DNA of 64,000 nt from an uncultured Clostridia bacterium. Its GTDB lineage: Bacteria; Bacillota; Clostridia; Christensenellales; Borkfalkiaceae. The notes beneath the pieces are model-generated. The model ran no database searches, was not told where the DNA came from, and saw only the letters and a list, made by a program, of their open reading frames with translations. The stretch spans positions 124,001 through 188,000 of the forward strand of contig CALVUR010000003.1 in assembly GCA_944363645.1 (NCBI GenBank). Direction: 5' to 3'. Positions 12,309 to 21,464 of the stretch are shown here, in pieces (position 1 is the stretch's first letter; each line of letters begins with the position of its first letter). The translations under genes were made by a program, and so were the position numbers.

Positions 12309-14642
12309 TCAATCGTTAATTTTGTCCGTAAAAGTTGTTTCAACTTCGCTTTCACTATCATTTTCAGTGCCGTTTTCAGCGTCATTTTGAGCGTCAATAT
12401 CGCTTTCTATATCGCCGTCAATATCGCTGACACTACTTTCTTCAGCATCGCCGTCAACCATCCAATAATTGTCGCCGTACTCTTTGATAAGTTGGTCTAA
12501 ATTATCTTCTTTTGGTTTGATTTTATGTTTTTCCTTTACGACAATAAAGGTAATTGCACCGCCAATAAGCAATGCGAAAATAACAATAATGACAATGATT
12601 GCGGTAAGCCAAGTGGTTGTACCGAAAAGGTATTCAATAAAAGTTGGTTGGCGTGAATTTAAAACGCCGGCAAATGCGATTTGACCGTTATATTCCACAA
12701 ACACGCCCACCATTTTATCAAAGGTTGGAAGTTGCGCCGTGGTGATTATGCCGGGGTGCACACTTTTATAAACCAAACTTTCACCAAACATATTGCCGTC
12801 CACCAAATTTTGGGCGGTAATTTTTTTGTTTAAAATGTATTCGCCATTTTTATATTTGGTAAAGTTTTCTGCCGTGTAAACATAAATTGTTGCGTTGCCG
12901 TTTCGTAACCCACCCGACCAATTTACGCAAAGATTGCCTTTAAAATCTTTTGTGATATCGGCAAAGGTAAGGGCGTTTTCTTGATCGTCAAAAGTAATCC
13001 GAAAAGTGAAACTACCGTCCGCATTTTTTGTTATGTTTGAAATTTTAATACCGCTGTTTGTGCCGTCTTGATAGTAAATTGAAGTGGTTAAAATGTTGGT
13101 ATTTTGGTCGATAATCGACTTATATGCCGACTTATCTAAATTACCGAGCGTGCGATTGTCAACACTTGCGTGGTTTACATAATCGTAAATTAAACCGCTT
13201 CCCGACAGTATCGCATACGACAAAGTATTTGATGTGTCGCAAAGTTTTTCGTTGCCCATACGGAAAACGTAAACTTCGTTTGCGCCGTACATATTGCCAA
13301 GATTGACACTTCCTATCTGCCCATCGCTACCGATATATCCGTTTTTCTCGTTTACACGATAACAAATGATGCCAGAATCTGTCAAAAAGCAGTCCGCCAA
13401 GTCGCCTTCGTTACTGCGTGCTTCAATCATGAAATATTCGCCACGCTCGTTATAATCGTTTAAAACGATTTTTATCGCCTTGTTTTGATTTTCAAAAATT
13501 GTGGGGAAAAGCGTATACGTACCCGACTTACTAACGGTTAAAATGTTTTCATCCCCCACCCAGCCAAGCCGATTTGCCGTGTACATAAGTGGCATTGACG
13601 GAAGGGTTGCAACACCGCCCATAATGTCAAGTTCGCCAACGGGCTCGTTTGAATAAATGTCCTCACCGCTTGTCATATATGGATAATAATCTGCAACGCC
13701 CAAATCGTGCATGAGTTCATGACAGATAAGCCCCGGCGAATAAATGGTGTTGCCTTCTAAATCGGTAACGAGCCATTTTTCCAACTGCACGGTGGGGAAA
13801 ATGGTATAATTATCAACGACCTTTTCGCCCAAATAGGTTGGCAAAAATTGAGATACGTCAAGACTTGTGCTATCAGGAATATAGTATTCATTTTTTAAGT
13901 TGTCAAAATCACGAATAAACAAATTGCTTCTGTGCGCCCACAAAATGTTATCCCAACTTAAATCTAAATCGGTTGTTGCAAATATAAAATTAAGCCCATC
14001 AATTACGCCGTTACTGTCAAAATCTACATCGATATTTTTTAAATTTTGAACGGCATTTAAAACGGCTTTTACAAGTTCCTGTTCACGCAAAAGTCTGTCT
14101 ATATGCCGTTTAGCGCCACTTTTTGACGACAAGCAAGGCTGTCCGTCTTGGTCAAAATAACGGTTGTCGTAACCATTAGAATTGATTTCAACATAACCAT
14201 TTATTAAATACAAATAGCGTGGCATAAAATAACTTTGTGGCTTGTCTAAACTTACCACAACATCGCTTAAAAAGTCAGCCGATATTTGATAATTATTGTA
14301 AGAGGCTTGCAAAAAATAATTTTTTACGCTTTGCGCAGAGTTTATATAAGTGTTTTTAAGGGTGGTAAATATATCTTCACTTTGATTGGTGTCTGAAAAC
14401 TTTACCACCAAAAGCCCATAGTTATTTTGCTTTGTAACTATGTCTGCCCTTTCACCACTTACTGCGCTTTGTGCACTTTCCGCGTAAGATTTTTGTGCCG
14501 TTTCAATTTTTTCGCCATAAGTAAGCCCAAAAGCCCCTTCGTTTTCACGCCCAAACGCCACAACATTTAAGCCGATTGGCGCAATAAAAATGACAAAAGC
14601 GAAAAGTATTGATATTAAAATTTTTAAAGTCCATTTTTTCAT
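12309..14642 (-). CDS. Membrane-anchored M6-like metalloprotease
   Basis: A secreted zinc protease tethered to the membrane. The N-terminus MKKWTLKILISILFAFVIFI is a signal/anchor helix. The metzincin-type site HELMHDLGVADYY (H314, E315, H318 counted from an upstream in-frame GTG) fits the M6 (immune inhibitor A-like) family pattern HExxHxxGxxD. A second transmembrane segment, TTWLTAIIVIIVIFALLIGG, lies about 105 residues from the end, followed by an acidic tail rich in Asp, Glu and Asn. I chose ATG 14642. A good -10 box ends six bases before it, which suggests a leaderless message. The substrate is unknown. It is divergent from spoIIE. Confidence 0.78.
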   Translation of the reverse strand: MKKWTLKILISILFAFVIFIAPIGLNVVAFGRENEGAFGLTYGEKIETAQKSYAESAQSAVSGERADIVTKQNNYGLLVVKFSDTNQSEDIFTTLKNTYINSAQSVKNYFLQASYNNYQISADFLSDVVVSLDKPQSYFMPRYLYLINGYVEINSNGYDNRYFDQDGQPCLSSKSGAKRHIDRLLREQELVKAVLNAVQNLKNIDVDFDSNGVIDGLNFIFATTDLDLSWDNILWAHRSNLFIRDFDNLKNEYYIPDSTSLDVSQFLPTYLGEKVVDNYTIFPTVQLEKWLVTDLEGNTIYSPGLICHELMHDLGVADYYPYMTSGEDIYSNEPVGELDIMGGVATLPSMPLMYTANRLGWVGDENILTVSKSGTYTLFPTIFENQNKAIKIVLNDYNERGEYFMIEARSNEGDLADCFLTDSGIICYRVNEKNGYIGSDGQIGSVNLGNMYGANEVYVFRMGNEKLCDTSNTLSYAILSGSGLIYDYVNHASVDNRTLGNLDKSAYKSIIDQNTNILTTSIYYQDGTNSGIKISNITKNADGSFTFRITFDDQENALTFADITKDFKGNLCVNWSGGLRNGNATIYVYTAENFTKYKNGEYILNKKITAQNLVDGNMFGESLVYKSVHPGIITTAQLPTFDKMVGVFVEYNGQIAFAGVLNSRQPTFIEYLFGTTTWLTAIIVIIVIFALLIGGAITFIVVKEKHKIKPKEDNLDQLIKEYGDNYWMVDGDAEESSVSDIDGDIESDIDAQNDAENGTENDSESEVETTFTDKIND

Positions 14643-14648
14643 AGTTAT

Positions 14649-14677
14649 ATTATACAACACTTACAAAATATAATCAA
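14649..14677 (-). promoter_or_regulatory. Promoter of the M6-like protease gene, almost touching its ATG
   Basis: On the minus strand TTGATT (14672-14677), 17 bases, then TATAAT (14649-14654), then six bases to ATG 14642. Transcription would start at or next to the A of the start codon, and no Shine-Dalgarno sequence is present. Confidence 0.6.
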
Positions 14678-14767: not shown

Positions 14768-17023
14768 ATGAAAAACGACCTTGTTAAAAATATAATTTTA
14801 TACCCTTTATTGCTTTTAATTTTTTGCGCACTAAATTTTGCAATCAGCGACGCACCCCTTTCTTGTGGGGCGTTTGTTGCGCTACTTGTAATCGACCTAC
14901 CGATAATACCACTTTCCCTTATTTTTTGCCTTTCTTTTTGCGTATATAAAAGTTGGTTTTTTATGCTTTTTGGGGCGGTGTTTGCGGTAATTTTTGGGCT
15001 GATATTTTTGATTTACCGCAAAAAAAATAAAACGGTAGGCATTGAACTTACCGTTTACATAATTTTGGGTTTAGCCCTTTATGTTTTGAAAGATTTCCCC
15101 GATAGAATTGTTGAAAAGTTGGTCTATATGTCGATTATCGCCACTTTTACCATTGTTGCGCAAATTGGGTTTACAAACATTTTTTACAAAAAAATGAGTT
15201 TTAGCACCACCGAAAGTGAAGCCTTTATGGTGGCAACACTTTACATTTTGACTTCAATTGGGCTTATCAATTTGTTTGGGGTATTTTGTTATAAACCGCT
15301 TTCCGTTTTAATCTTTATTTTGCTATCACGCTACTATAAAAACAACCTTTCACTTTTGGTTGCGGTGGTGGTTGCAACGCCTTATGTAATAACCACACAA
15401 AATTACAAAATTTTCGCCGTTTACATTTTATTTTTCATGGTGTACAGCGTGTTTAAGTTTGCGCCGTCCATTGCAATCTCTGTCGGTATTTTACTTGCGG
15501 AACTTCTCTCTGGGATATTTTTTAAATTTTACGGAAGTTACGGCTATATGGAAAGTTTACCAACAATCATTGTAACCATAATAACTTCACTTATAAGCAC
15601 ACACAAAATGGACACCCTTAACAAAAAATATAACTTTGATGGGACAAGTACGCTGATAAGATCGGTGATAAACCGAACACGTCTTGGCACTTCGAAGCGA
15701 CTTTACGACATTTCTAACGTGTTTTACCAGATGGAAGACGCCTTTAAAAACCTTAAAAAGTGTGCGGTCAGCACGGACACTTTGGTGGAAAAGATGTGCG
15801 ATGAAGTGCTGTTTAACATGTGCGCAGAATGCACGCTTAAACCAAAATGCATAAATAAAAACACGCCGAAGCGTGATTTGATTGAAAAAATTATTAAAAT
15901 TGGCATTGCAAAAGGTCGTATTACCATAGTAGATTTACCCAAAGATTTTTTGGATGTTTGCGCATACCCAAACAGCGTAATTTTTGAAGTTAATCGGCTT
16001 ATAGGCGCATATTGTGAGTATATAAAGGGTGCTGAAAGCAATGATAAATCAAAGGAAATTTTAAGCCTTCAGTCGGCTGGTGTTGCAGGGCTACTAAAAA
16101 GTCTTGCCTTTTCCCTTTCAAAAATTAGCACGGAAAACAAGGACGAAGAACGCACAATAAAGCGTGTGCTTTCTAAAAACGGTGTAAAGTGCGACGGCGC
16201 CCTTTGTTTTGGCGAAGGCAGTCAAACGGAAATTGAACTTATTATGCCCACAAGATATTATAAAAAGTTTGACGTTGCAAAAATTTTATCCAACCACTTT
16301 AACACAAAATTTATAATTTGCAAGGCGGAAAGCGTTGCGAACAATGTGATAAATTTATCGCTTAAGTTTGCGCCAAAGTTTGATGCCGTATTCGGGGTGA
16401 GCAAAATCACAAAAACAAACTCCCCCGAATCCGGCGATTGCCATTCCCTAATCAAGGTGGACGAAGGTAATTTTTTGGTTGCACTCTCCGACGGAATGGG
16501 GAGTGGCAACCTTGCAAAAAAGACTTCGGAAACGGCTTTAAACTTAATTGAATCATTATATAAAGCAGGTCTTGACAGCGAATTTATTTTAACGCTTGTA
16601 AACAAACTTTTATCAATTTCAGTGGACGATAACTTTTCGGCAATAGATATCGCACTTGTAAACTTGCGTGAAGGCACGACCGCCTTTATAAAAATTGGCT
16701 CGCCTTACGGCTTTGTGGTTTCAGATAAAGGCATACGATTTATTGAAGGCTCTTCACTGCCACTTGGGATACTTGACGACCTTCACCCAACGGTTGCAAG
16801 CGCAACTTTAAGTAGTGGCGATGTCATAGTGATGATTTCTGACGGCGTGCAAGATGCGTTTACATCTTCTGGCGATTTGATAGACTTTTTAAAGTCCGCA
16901 CCCATACACAATCCGCAAGAACTTGCCGATGCCATAATTGCAAAAGCGTACGAACTTTCAAACGGCACACCATTAGATGATATGAGCGCAGTTTGCGTTA
17001 GACTTGTAGATAAACTCACTTAA
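14768..17023 (+). CDS. spoIIE: Stage II sporulation protein E (PP2C phosphatase)
   Basis: A membrane serine phosphatase that dephosphorylates SpoIIAA to release sigma-F in the forespore and interacts with the division machinery. Residues 1-290 hold about ten hydrophobic segments. A central region follows with Cys-rich CDEVLFNMCAECTLKPKC near 345, typical of SpoIIE. The C-terminal PP2C domain has FLVALSDGMGSG (metal Asp near 574) and VIVMISDGVQDAF (Asp near 692). Its 751 residues are somewhat shorter than the roughly 830 of B. subtilis. A GGTGGT ribosome site precedes ATG 14768. It is the clearest sign that the organism makes, or its ancestors made, endospores. Confidence 0.95.
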   Translation: MKNDLVKNIILYPLLLLIFCALNFAISDAPLSCGAFVALLVIDLPIIPLSLIFCLSFCVYKSWFFMLFGAVFAVIFGLIFLIYRKKNKTVGIELTVYIILGLALYVLKDFPDRIVEKLVYMSIIATFTIVAQIGFTNIFYKKMSFSTTESEAFMVATLYILTSIGLINLFGVFCYKPLSVLIFILLSRYYKNNLSLLVAVVVATPYVITTQNYKIFAVYILFFMVYSVFKFAPSIAISVGILLAELLSGIFFKFYGSYGYMESLPTIIVTIITSLISTHKMDTLNKKYNFDGTSTLIRSVINRTRLGTSKRLYDISNVFYQMEDAFKNLKKCAVSTDTLVEKMCDEVLFNMCAECTLKPKCINKNTPKRDLIEKIIKIGIAKGRITIVDLPKDFLDVCAYPNSVIFEVNRLIGAYCEYIKGAESNDKSKEILSLQSAGVAGLLKSLAFSLSKISTENKDEERTIKRVLSKNGVKCDGALCFGEGSQTEIELIMPTRYYKKFDVAKILSNHFNTKFIICKAESVANNVINLSLKFAPKFDAVFGVSKITKTNSPESGDCHSLIKVDEGNFLVALSDGMGSGNLAKKTSETALNLIESLYKAGLDSEFILTLVNKLLSISVDDNFSAIDIALVNLREGTTAFIKIGSPYGFVVSDKGIRFIEGSSLPLGILDDLHPTVASATLSSGDVIVMISDGVQDAFTSSGDLIDFLKSAPIHNPQELADAIIAKAYELSNGTPLDDMSAVCVRLVDKLT

Positions 17024-18343: not shown

Positions 18344-19546
18344 TTAAATAGTTTGTGTTAAAGCACGGTCATCATCGTTGTCGTCGTTACCGTCATCGTC
18401 GTCATCGTCGTTGTCGTCAACGTCGTTGTCGTCATCGTCGTCGTCATCGTCGTCGCATTGGTTGCGGTCTAAGTCAACAGATGTGCCGTCATCAAAAACG
18501 TAGTGATATTTACCGTCTTGAACGTAAACGCTGAAAGCAACGTCTTGACCATTGATTTTGCCAGAGACTTTCATATACTTTTGTGCGCTGTCGTCGTCCG
18601 TTTGGAAAACCAAAGTTTCTTGGTCGCCGTTTGCTTCGATAGTGATAACTAAATCGAGTTCAGTGCCTTCTTGTTCGTACTTAACAAGTGTTCTTTCTTT
18701 AACATTGCCTTGAGAGTACAATGTGTAAATGTATTCGAGTTCGTTTTCAGTTTGACCACCTTCAACTTCGTTTTCAGCCTTTCTGGTAACTTCGATATAG
18801 TCTGTTTCGCTTAAGTATGCCCTAAAGTAAAGTTCTGTTTCCGTCTCGCCTTGTTCAGCGTCTTCGTTAAACCTACCTTGAACGGGATAATTTACGCCGT
18901 CAACAATCAAGATACCGTCGATAGAAAATTCTTGCTCGTCATCGCCAACCTTGTCGTAAGGCGTTTTGTTAATGTACATTTCGTAACTAACAACATTGCC
19001 AAGGAAGTCCTGATAACTAATTAACATGCCGTCTTCATAGCCTTCAATGGGCGTTAAATGTTCGTGATTTATATCGCCTTCGGCAAGCAAACTTTCGGCA
19101 AGCGACATGTATTTGTTGATTGACTGCATTTGCTCGTCAGTGGGGTGCGTTGCGTTTATGTTTTGAGTTTTCGCACTCACATTCGTTACGGGGGCAGGCG
19201 TGGTGGAAGAAGAAATTACCGTGCCGATTGAAGCAGCACCATAGCAATAAAAAGATTCGCTGTTGGTGATTTGGTTGAACTTGCCTAAGCCAAAGTCGTC
19301 AATACCGGCTGGTGATTTGCGTAGAAGCATCGTACCAACAAGCGCAAACGCCATAATAAGCACAACTGCGATAGCGACGAACATAAAACTAACCTTTTTA
19401 TTGGTTCTTTTAACCGCCATAGTGTGGCCACCAACATTTTGGTAATTTACACCAGCATTAAGATTATCTTTAATGTTTTGTTTTACTTTTTCATCGGGCA
19501 GTATACTTTTCCGCTCTTGGCGTAAAAGTTTTTTTACGTCTTTCAT
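18344..19546 (-). CDS. Membrane anti-sigma factor with large outer domain and Asp-rich tail
   Basis: Likely holds the ECF sigma factor encoded just upstream (four-base overlap, ATGA type) inactive at the membrane. Residues 1-50 are cytoplasmic and charged (MKDVKKLLRQERKSILPDEK), followed by one transmembrane helix, FMFVAIAVVLIMAFALVGTM. The rest is an outer domain of about 300 residues. It ends in a run of over 25 residues, almost all Asp with some Asn and Gly, then RALTQTI. No zinc-binding ZAS motif is visible. The outer domain is clearly related to the lipoprotein at 20514: compare GTVISS with GMIISA, GILIVDGVNYPVQG with GVLVIDGVDYAIRG, and SYEMYIN with SYEMHYV. The acidic tail may bind calcium or other cations. 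Confidence 0.75.
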   Translation of the reverse strand: MKDVKKLLRQERKSILPDEKVKQNIKDNLNAGVNYQNVGGHTMAVKRTNKKVSFMFVAIAVVLIMAFALVGTMLLRKSPAGIDDFGLGKFNQITNSESFYCYGAASIGTVISSSTTPAPVTNVSAKTQNINATHPTDEQMQSINKYMSLAESLLAEGDINHEHLTPIEGYEDGMLISYQDFLGNVVSYEMYINKTPYDKVGDDEQEFSIDGILIVDGVNYPVQGRFNEDAEQGETETELYFRAYLSETDYIEVTRKAENEVEGGQTENELEYIYTLYSQGNVKERTLVKYEQEGTELDLVITIEANGDQETLVFQTDDDSAQKYMKVSGKINGQDVAFSVYVQDGKYHYVFDDGTSVDLDRNQCDDDDDDDDDNDVDDNDDDDDDGNDDNDDDRALTQTI

Positions 19547-20070
19547 ACATTGCCCTCCTTTTCAAGATGTTTTTTAAGTTTTTTAAGGGCTTCGTTGTTT
19601 TTCCAGGTAACCGTACCGATTGGGATATTAAGCATATCAGCGACTTCCCTACGCTTGTAACCTGCAACGTGGCAGAGCATGATAATTTCATACTCTTCTT
19701 CATTTAAAATTTTTGACGCAACTTGAAAGATGAAAGGCATGTAAGTTTCGGTCGTGCCGTACTTATAACTGTCTTCGGCAAAATCGGTTAAAGTTTCACG
19801 ACTGATTTTTTTTACGTGATTGAGTGCCAAAGACCTGCCGATAGTGATCAGCCAGCCGATAAAGTTTGTGCCTAACTTGTACGAATCTAATGAATTTAAC
19901 GCACGAAGATAGGTGTCTTGAAGTAAGTCTTCCGCCTGAGCCTTTTGTTTTACGATGTACAAGATAGCAAAATAAACGCTTCTGTTTGTCTTGTCGTAAA
20001 CATAGTCAAATGCGGAATTGTCGCCTTTTATCAATCTTTCAACATAGTGGTCTAATTTGCGTGTGTTCAT
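19543..20070 (-). CDS. ECF RNA polymerase sigma factor
   Basis: A 175-residue extracytoplasmic-function sigma factor. Region 2 is seen in YDKTNRSVYFAILYIVKQ and AEDLLQDTYLRALNSLDSY, and region 4 in EYEIIMLCHVAGYKRREVAD and LNIPIGTVTWKNNEALKKLK, the helix-turn-helix that reads the -35 element. The gene overlaps the downstream anti-sigma gene by four bases. Its own promoter shares a two-part motif with the divergent lipoprotein gene, which points to autoregulation. The -10-like element ends about six bases before ATG 20070, so the message would have almost no leader. I see no better start inside the gene. Confidence 0.9.
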   Translation of the reverse strand: MNTRKLDHYVERLIKGDNSAFDYVYDKTNRSVYFAILYIVKQKAQAEDLLQDTYLRALNSLDSYKLGTNFIGWLITIGRSLALNHVKKISRETLTDFAEDSYKYGTTETYMPFIFQVASKILNEEEYEIIMLCHVAGYKRREVADMLNIPIGTVTWKNNEALKKLKKHLEKEGNV

Positions 20071-20076
20071 AAACCC

Positions 20077-20113
20077 TTCACTTATATAACAATCTAAAAG
20101 TAAAAATTGTTGG
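20077..20113 (-). promoter_or_regulatory. Predicted ECF-type promoter of the sigma operon
   Basis: On the minus strand CCAACAATTT (20104-20113), ten bases, then ATTGTTATATAAGTGAA (20077-20093). The same two blocks with the same ten-base spacing occur at 20423-20459 on the plus strand. The AAC in the first block is typical of ECF -35 elements. Confidence 0.7.
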
Positions 20114-20295
20114 TAATTTTATTTTTTTGTAAAAATTTTTTTCTTTTGTTTTTTTGATTTAAAGTAAGCCCTTTTGTTTACATAAAAAAGTTTACCAAAT
20201 CAATTTTGAATTCCTTTGCTATTATATAAGAATTCTTTTGTAAAATCAAAACGTTTTAAGGCGCAGGCTGGCTTTTTTAAACTCACAAAGGATTT

Positions 20296-20317
20296 TGCCC
20301 TAAATTTAGGGCGTTTT
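20296..20317 (+). terminator. Possible terminator upstream of the lipoprotein promoter
   Basis: GCCCTAAATTTAGGGC is a perfect palindrome followed by GTTTTTT on the plus strand. It would block read-through into the lipoprotein gene from the left. The rest of the 442-bp divergent spacer holds the two matched promoters and no gene. Confidence 0.5.
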
Positions 20318-20422
20318 TTAAAATTTTTTCAGCCAAATTTTGCCTTATACATATAATAATGATAGCAAAAAGGGGCGTTTTCGTCAAACAATATAAAATT
20401 GTAAAAAATTTTTTTAATTTTT

Positions 20423-20459
20423 CCAACAATTTGGCAAACTTAATTGTTATATAAGTGAA
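20423..20459 (+). promoter_or_regulatory. Predicted ECF-type promoter of the lipoprotein gene
   Basis: CCAACAATTT (20423-20432), ten bases, ATTGTTATATAAGTGAA (20443-20459): 27 of 27 motif bases are the same as in the sigma operon promoter, while the ten spacer bases differ. A normal 55-base leader with an AAGGAGAT ribosome site follows. Confidence 0.75.
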
Positions 20460-20513
20460 AGCTGAAAACAAAACGGCTTAACAAAATAAAAAACTTTCAA
20501 GGAGATATAAAAA

Positions 20514-21464
20514 ATGAAAAAAATTATTTTAGCATTAGTTATTGTAGCATCACTTATTGGCACTATCGTTTTAGCAAGTTGCCTTGGCAAAAACCAGGTA
20601 AACGCAAACAAGTTTGAAGATTTAAACCAAGTTAATTCAGTTTACGCATTCAGCGCTGCTTCTGCAGGCATGATCATCTCAGCCGAAGGTTTAGCACCCG
20701 GTGCTGTTTCAGTTGACGATACACAAACCCCACCAACCACACAACCAGAAGTTACTGAAGATTACAGCGAACTCGATGGTTACATGACATTAGTAGGCAG
20801 TTTATTAAGCGACGGTGCTTTTGAAATCACTGAAAGCGCGTCAGACAGAGAAGGTTATACACACAAAACAGTAGTTACTTTCACAAACATTGACGGTACT
20901 AAAGGTTCTTACGAAATGCACTACGTAACATTCGATCACGAAACAGAAACTGAAACTGACGATGACTTCGGCGCAAAGACAGTTGAAACTGAAGAAGAAT
21001 ATAAAATTAAAGGCGTTCTCGTAATCGACGGTGTTGACTACGCTATCCGTGGTGAAGCTGAAAACGAAACAGAAGGCACAGAAACAGAAAACGAAACAAA
21101 GTTCTTCGTAGAATTAAGCGAAGGCAGATACATGCTCGTTGAACGTTCATTCGAAAATGAAGATGGTGAAATTGAACAAGAATACAGATACTCAATCTTC
21201 AAAGATGGCAACCTTGTTGAAGAATGCGCTTTCGAATACGAAATTGAAAACGACGAAACAGAAGTTAAGATGACCACTTTAAAAGACGGTTCACGACAAG
21301 CGTTCTACTTCGAAAAAGAAGTTGAATATGGCAGAGACGTATTAAAGTTAAGAGTTGGCGCAACCGACGACGATGATGACAACGCTAAACTTTACATCGT
21401 AAAACCTGTTACCAACGAAGATGGCACAGTATCTTACGAATACAAACTCATTAAACGTGACTAA
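20514..21464 (+). CDS. Lipoprotein, paralogue of the anti-sigma outer domain
   Basis: A 316-residue exported lipoprotein. MKKIILALVIVASLIGTIVL is the signal sequence and LASC the lipobox, with the lipidated Cys at 23. The mature part is very acidic, with ETETETDDD and TEGTETENETK stretches and a DDDDD run near residue 288. It matches the outer domain of the anti-sigma factor at 18344 through most of its length, including the start VYAFSAASAGMIIS versus FYCYGAASIGTVIS. It is divergent from the sigma operon and has the same promoter motif, so it is probably part of the same regulon. It may compete for the signal or feed back on the anti-sigma factor. That role is inference. Confidence 0.8.
   Translation: MKKIILALVIVASLIGTIVLASCLGKNQVNANKFEDLNQVNSVYAFSAASAGMIISAEGLAPGAVSVDDTQTPPTTQPEVTEDYSELDGYMTLVGSLLSDGAFEITESASDREGYTHKTVVTFTNIDGTKGSYEMHYVTFDHETETETDDDFGAKTVETEEEYKIKGVLVIDGVDYAIRGEAENETEGTETENETKFFVELSEGRYMLVERSFENEDGEIEQEYRYSIFKDGNLVEECAFEYEIENDETEVKMTTLKDGSRQAFYFEKEVEYGRDVLKLRVGATDDDDDNAKLYIVKPVTNEDGTVSYEYKLIKRD

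Follow-up and report, generated by a model that had tools for sequence, protein, structure and literature searches.

An ECF sigma factor module whose anti-sigma sensor may be a copy of the neighbouring lipoprotein

Why should the membrane sensor of a sigma factor carry the same outer domain as a lipoprotein encoded next to it? The question is raised by a locus in a stretch of 64,000 nucleotides from an uncultured Clostridia bacterium (the window, by which we mean the whole stretch that was analysed). Here the genes for an ECF sigma factor, a membrane anti-sigma factor and a lipoprotein lie together, at the positions that a preliminary description had correctly assigned to them (Table 1).

Table 1. 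Features of the trio locus, with positions counted from the first nucleotide of the window
Feature	Position	Strand	Basis or remark
Membrane anti-sigma factor, 400 aa	18344..19546	-	Position, hydrophobicity, AlphaFold2 model
Anti-sigma poly-Asp/Asn tail, residues 362-400	18344..18463	-	Lipoprotein lacks such a tail
Anti-sigma ectodomain, residues 76-361	18464..19321	-	Homologue of the lipoprotein; predicted pair of helices with a meander of 14-15 strands
ECF sigma factor, 175 aa	19543..20070	-	Pfam Sigma70_r2/r4, NCBIfam sigma70-ECF
Sigma/anti-sigma operon promoter	20077..20113	-	Identical 27 bases; start codon 12 nt beyond the end of the -10
Lipoprotein promoter	20423..20459	+	CCAACAATTT-N10-ATTGTTATATAAGTGAA; start codon about 60 nt downstream of the -10
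Lipoprotein, 316 aa	20514..21464	+	Signal peptide, lipobox LASC (Cys23), ectodomain as in the anti-sigma factor

The sigma factor consists of the sigma2 and sigma4 regions only (Sigma70_r2 with E 3.7e-12 and r4 with E 1.2e-6 within its 175 residues), and its orthologues in the other trios compared are 32-69% identical to it. Its stop codon overlaps the start codon of the 400-residue membrane protein, which indicates an operon, and from this gene context we infer that the membrane protein is the anti-sigma factor. The predicted layout of the latter begins as is usual for an anti-sigma factor co-encoded with an ECF sigma factor, with a cytoplasmic N-terminal part (residues 1-53, with helices at 2-29) and one transmembrane segment (54-75), after which come the ectodomain and the acidic tail. 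Runs of at least five aspartates occur in 35 of 61 anti-sigma factors against none of 57 lipoproteins. All of these 57 lipoprotein homologues have a lipobox, with Cys23 invariant throughout. The median net charge is -47 for the anti-sigma factors and -44 for the lipoproteins.

The collinear phrases that had been noticed between the lipoprotein and the outer half of the anti-sigma factor are real: the two proteins are 30% identical over 282 residues (BLASTP with composition adjustment, E 4e-31), and a profile-profile comparison over 316 columns, built from 57 and 59 homologues, gives a probability of 100% with E 3.2e-77. The composition-adjusted search and the profile comparison together rule out a chance likeness of two acidic proteins. 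In the AlphaFold2 models (mean pLDDT 78.6 for the lipoprotein and 79.3 for the anti-sigma factor, higher inside the domain) both proteins are predicted to consist of a pair of helices and then a β-meander of 14-15 long strands. The predictions agree in the order of secondary-structure elements, as do the aligned sequences. By these comparisons the anti-sigma ectodomain and the lipoprotein are homologous over the full length of the domain. The family itself has no consistent match in Pfam (searched with the 57 and 59 homologues), NCBIfam or the PDB, and Foldseek found no match to the ectodomain models in the PDB at E 1e-3. The best VIA scores (Z 8.8-9.0) were to β proteins unrelated to one another; porins, ORP domains and OspA were not accepted as kin, the fold-search matches being middling as well as mutually unrelated. 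A phage origin was likewise set aside, there being no phage match.

Read directly at both sites, the promoters of the two transcription units have in common the 27 bases of CCAACAATTT-N10-ATTGTTATATAAGTGAA that had been reported with their ten-base spacer. The window contains exactly two copies of the core pattern, as against none in 100 shuffles. The ten-base spacer is incidental: the conserved form, kept ahead of both genes in the relatives, is CCAACAA-N16/17-GTTATATA. Of 59 homologous loci, 54 have it at the lipoprotein with no more than one mismatch, and an extra GTG, which lies outside the searched pattern, follows the -10 in 93-100%. At the sigma gene of the relatives the -35 is as at the lipoprotein and the -10 is looser. 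The latter ends a median of 12 nt before the start codon, a distance at which the sigma/anti-sigma transcript would be almost leaderless. None of 320 regions upstream of other genes in these loci comes within two mismatches of the motif.

The two promoters also appear to change together. One motif is found at the sigma and lipoprotein genes and co-varies between clades, being of the type TTGGYAAAA-N-GTTATATA in G154, G343, G152 and G135 and GAGAATT-N-CGTATATA in G022 and G228. In six loci (G062, G022, G154, G228, G152 and G135) the pairing did better than all shuffles; in the others this test gave a weaker result or no clear one. The sigma genes of G056 and G050 are preceded by a sigma-A-like promoter, and there the motif is kept at the lipoprotein alone, which would make the lipoprotein the constant target. 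These observations support control of the lipoprotein gene by the sigma factor, which may also regulate its own operon.

How much else the sigma factor controls was addressed by searching 14 genomes with a strict pattern and 13 with a profile built from 72 promoters. The profile search scored the 150 best candidates of each genome, and degenerate or weaker targets could escape it. Within this scope both scans recovered the trio sites and hardly any others. All 23 trio sites in the 13 genomes score at least 17.7 bits, and among the 150 best candidates of each genome the sites outside the trio stay at or below 15.5 bits in all but one of the 13. Since the motif marks only the trio cluster in these 12 genomes, the lipoprotein looks like the one conserved output of the sigma factor. 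The AT-rich genome of the window itself has two further motif-like sites, with 21.5 and 19.4 bits, one of which points at no gene while the other precedes a transglutaminase-like lipoprotein. A wide regulon was not found, the extra sites of the window genome being intragenic or gene-less except for that at the transglutaminase-like lipoprotein. This last site is intergenic (L200:2649-2682, at C5:37149 of the genome), lies about 180 nt upstream of the predicted gene, and was not observed in relatives.

A protein search of the named genomes found sigma factor, anti-sigma factor and lipoprotein complete in 60 of 64 loci, 40 of them divergent and 20 tandem; two of the four remaining loci stop at a contig end. 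The search used the closer set of anti-sigma factors, an alignment of 21 mixed ectodomains being too diverse for a contig scan, and the 64 loci are therefore biased toward anti-sigma factors of the window type. Within the order, 84 of 396 genomes have the lipoprotein domain itself; in the rest of the class it is almost absent. For one of eight lone lipoproteins (G268) a sigma factor encoded in trans was located, adjoining an RsgI-like anti-sigma factor. Three loci (L235, L236 and L237, in G135, G240 and G375) have two ectodomain matches beside one sigma factor and one RsgI-like anti-sigma factor, and may represent either duplicated targets or a mixed architecture.

In many genomes of the order the trio is present with an anti-sigma ectodomain that does not match the lipoprotein. 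In all ten such proteins tested, the equivalent slot of the operon is filled by an RsgI_M ectodomain (PF23750, E 1e-9 to 1e-25), which we take to be the SEAL domain; the window anti-sigma factor has no PF23750 match at E up to 1. The N-terminal part is common to both types: nine RsgI_M anti-sigma factors match the window-family profile from position 1-3, eight of them as far as 73-84. Hence, it appears that one and the same anti-sigma factor has exchanged its outer domain. The lipoprotein is probably the constant element across the order, with an anti-sigma factor that swaps RsgI_M/SEAL for the lipoprotein domain. The preliminary description had taken the lipoprotein for a copy of the anti-sigma outer domain, and this direction is probably to be reversed. 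Of the self-controlled circuit that it proposed, we retain the closed loop, in which the sigma factor would direct synthesis of a lipid-anchored sensor paralogue, and not the lipoprotein as the derived form. The loop is supported by a motif pair that is present in about 60 loci, co-varies and is almost confined to the trio; envelope stress as the signal, and a decoy or co-sensor role of the lipoprotein, are putative.

The anti-sigma copies occupy several positions in a tree of 110 ectodomains, adjoining the lipoproteins of their own clades, and the supported branches force at least eight changes. A single origin of the anti-sigma ectodomain is rejected by the AU test (p 1.4e-13), although gene conversion would look alike. 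The two ectodomains of G050 (L045:4863-7894) agree at every one of 291 residues and differ at four of 876 nt, as a result of either recent gene conversion or an assembly artefact. Repeated capture of the target domain by the sensor, or else repeated gene conversion, the two not being separable everywhere, would explain why the anti-sigma ectodomains do not form one clade and why the G050 copies are identical. For the group of G233, G271, G056 and G050, the neighbouring lipoprotein lineages (G223 and G255) are paired with RsgI_M anti-sigma factors, which favours a gain of the domain by the anti-sigma factor; this grading of the direction applies to that group and not to the deepest split.

What would such a module do? 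We consider it an even bet that the neighbouring lipoprotein is the only conserved output of this ECF module, that the sensor is its copy, and that homeostasis arises through competition of sensor and product. The anti-sigma factor would keep the sigma factor at the membrane until an extracellular ligand, possibly cationic, acts on its ectodomain; cleavage of the anti-sigma factor would then free the sigma factor, and more sigma factor, anti-sigma factor and lipoprotein would be made. The lipoprotein would bind the ligand, or a site in common with the sensor, drawing the ligand off the sensor and bringing the circuit back to rest. That the ligand is cationic is a first guess and no more, made because both ectodomains are strongly acidic. 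Just short of an even chance, and hence tentative, is the wider proposal that the anti-sigma factor repeatedly takes its sensor domain from the single protein under control, with competition for one ligand setting the amount of that protein at the surface. We prefer competition on the grounds that no output other than the lipoprotein is conserved and that the captured domain derives from this same protein; its capture from the cognate target in particular points to a ligand or partner in common. Sensing of a shared ligand would not be essential to the module, since the sensor of the RsgI_M lineages is a different domain.

A different and rather unlikely possibility is that the lipoprotein is a direct feedback partner, which binds the anti-sigma ectodomain through the common fold, shields it from the first protease and so switches the sigma factor off. 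The contact would be homotypic, perhaps by way of the small-residue helix YxFSAASAG that is kept in both proteins, in the manner of RseB acting on RseA. Paralogous domains often pair, and the lipoprotein and the anti-sigma ectodomain both sit on the outer side of the membrane. The co-divergence of sigma factor and lipoprotein (Mantel r 0.88) points the same way, but is expected from common species history alone. The lipoprotein family also accompanies unrelated RsgI_M ectodomains, which argues against binding of the anti-sigma factor as its general role. A pure feedback role is also made less likely by the lack of any conserved output besides the lipoprotein: a lipoprotein that served as regulator alone would leave the circuit with no other conserved target.

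The shared domain would equally permit the lipoprotein to capture a surface signal and hand it to the anti-sigma factor as a co-sensor, and an autoregulated operon with an induced lipoprotein would then yield a switch that amplifies the response. The sequence gives no preference for activation over inhibition, however, and two positive loops without a further output are hard to justify, so that we regard this as highly improbable. Scarcely more probable is that the lipoprotein is an ordinary envelope effector, with the captured domain serving as a mechanical or proteolytic module in place of SEAL and with neither common ligand nor competition. The module does work elsewhere with RsgI_M sensors. 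Within a genome the two domains diverge to about 33% identity. In most genomes the ectodomains of anti-sigma factor and lipoprotein are 25-50% identical, divergence enough to leave room for different ligands, which also counts against the competition model. Against the effector reading, repeated capture from the cognate target is unlikely if any fold sufficed, and the competition of sensor and product remains our preferred reading.

The competition model and its rivals have partial counterparts among known systems. In the RpoE-RseA-RseB system of Escherichia coli a separate envelope protein modulates the anti-sigma factor from outside, as the lipoprotein of the window could do; RseB and the RseA sensor, however, are not paralogues, whereas here the accessory protein is both sensor paralogue and main output. 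With canonical ECF systems (PMC8103513) the module shares the two-gene operon, putative autoregulation, an AAC-bearing -35 (CCAACAA) and a single-TM anti-sigma factor. It differs from them in having GTTATATA rather than a CGT box as its -10, a sensor homologous to the target and a nearly single-target regulon. There is also a likeness in design to SigI-RsgI of Clostridium thermocellum (PMC4711584, PMC12203970), where a carbohydrate-sensing membrane anti-sigma factor has an outer domain resembling domains of the regulated products (CBM, GH10, PA14); the RsgI periplasmic domain is described as autocleaving (PMC12203970, with reference to Brogan et al. 2023 on SEAL domains). Both systems have a membrane anti-sigma factor with a product-like outer domain and an operon that is autoregulated, putatively so in the window, and sister lineages of the window module carry the RsgI_M/SEAL ectodomain itself. 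The partner in the window is, however, of the ECF type and not of the SigI family, its anti-sigma factor lacks RsgI_M, and the module has no second conserved target. The window sensor is a whole-length paralogue of one lipoprotein, whereas RsgI has a binding module in common with many enzymes.

ECF systems, and RsgI sensors whose binding modules are common to the regulated enzymes, are thus already known. What appears new is the whole-length match of an anti-sigma sensor to a single conserved target, with recurrent exchange; the open-access literature searched contained no account of such a trio. The locus points to the copying of the controlled protein as one route by which a membrane sensor may arise. 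The exchange of a SEAL sensor for one derived from the target, in modules that keep their sigma factor, promoter pair and lipoprotein, offers a natural experiment on how an anti-sigma factor changes its signal, and the near-private promoter with one conserved output makes the circuit small enough for complete testing. It also gives a first handle on an uncharacterised family of acidic lipoproteins that is widespread in Christensenellales-like gut bacteria.

Two further genes of the window may be recorded. The gene at 12309-14660 on the minus strand encodes a large secreted protein that weakly matches M6-type peptidases and has a C-terminal TM segment. At 14768-17023 on the plus strand there is a SpoIIE-like protein (PF07228, E 1.4e-27; SpoIIE_N, 6.9e-14), which suggests a capacity for sporulation.
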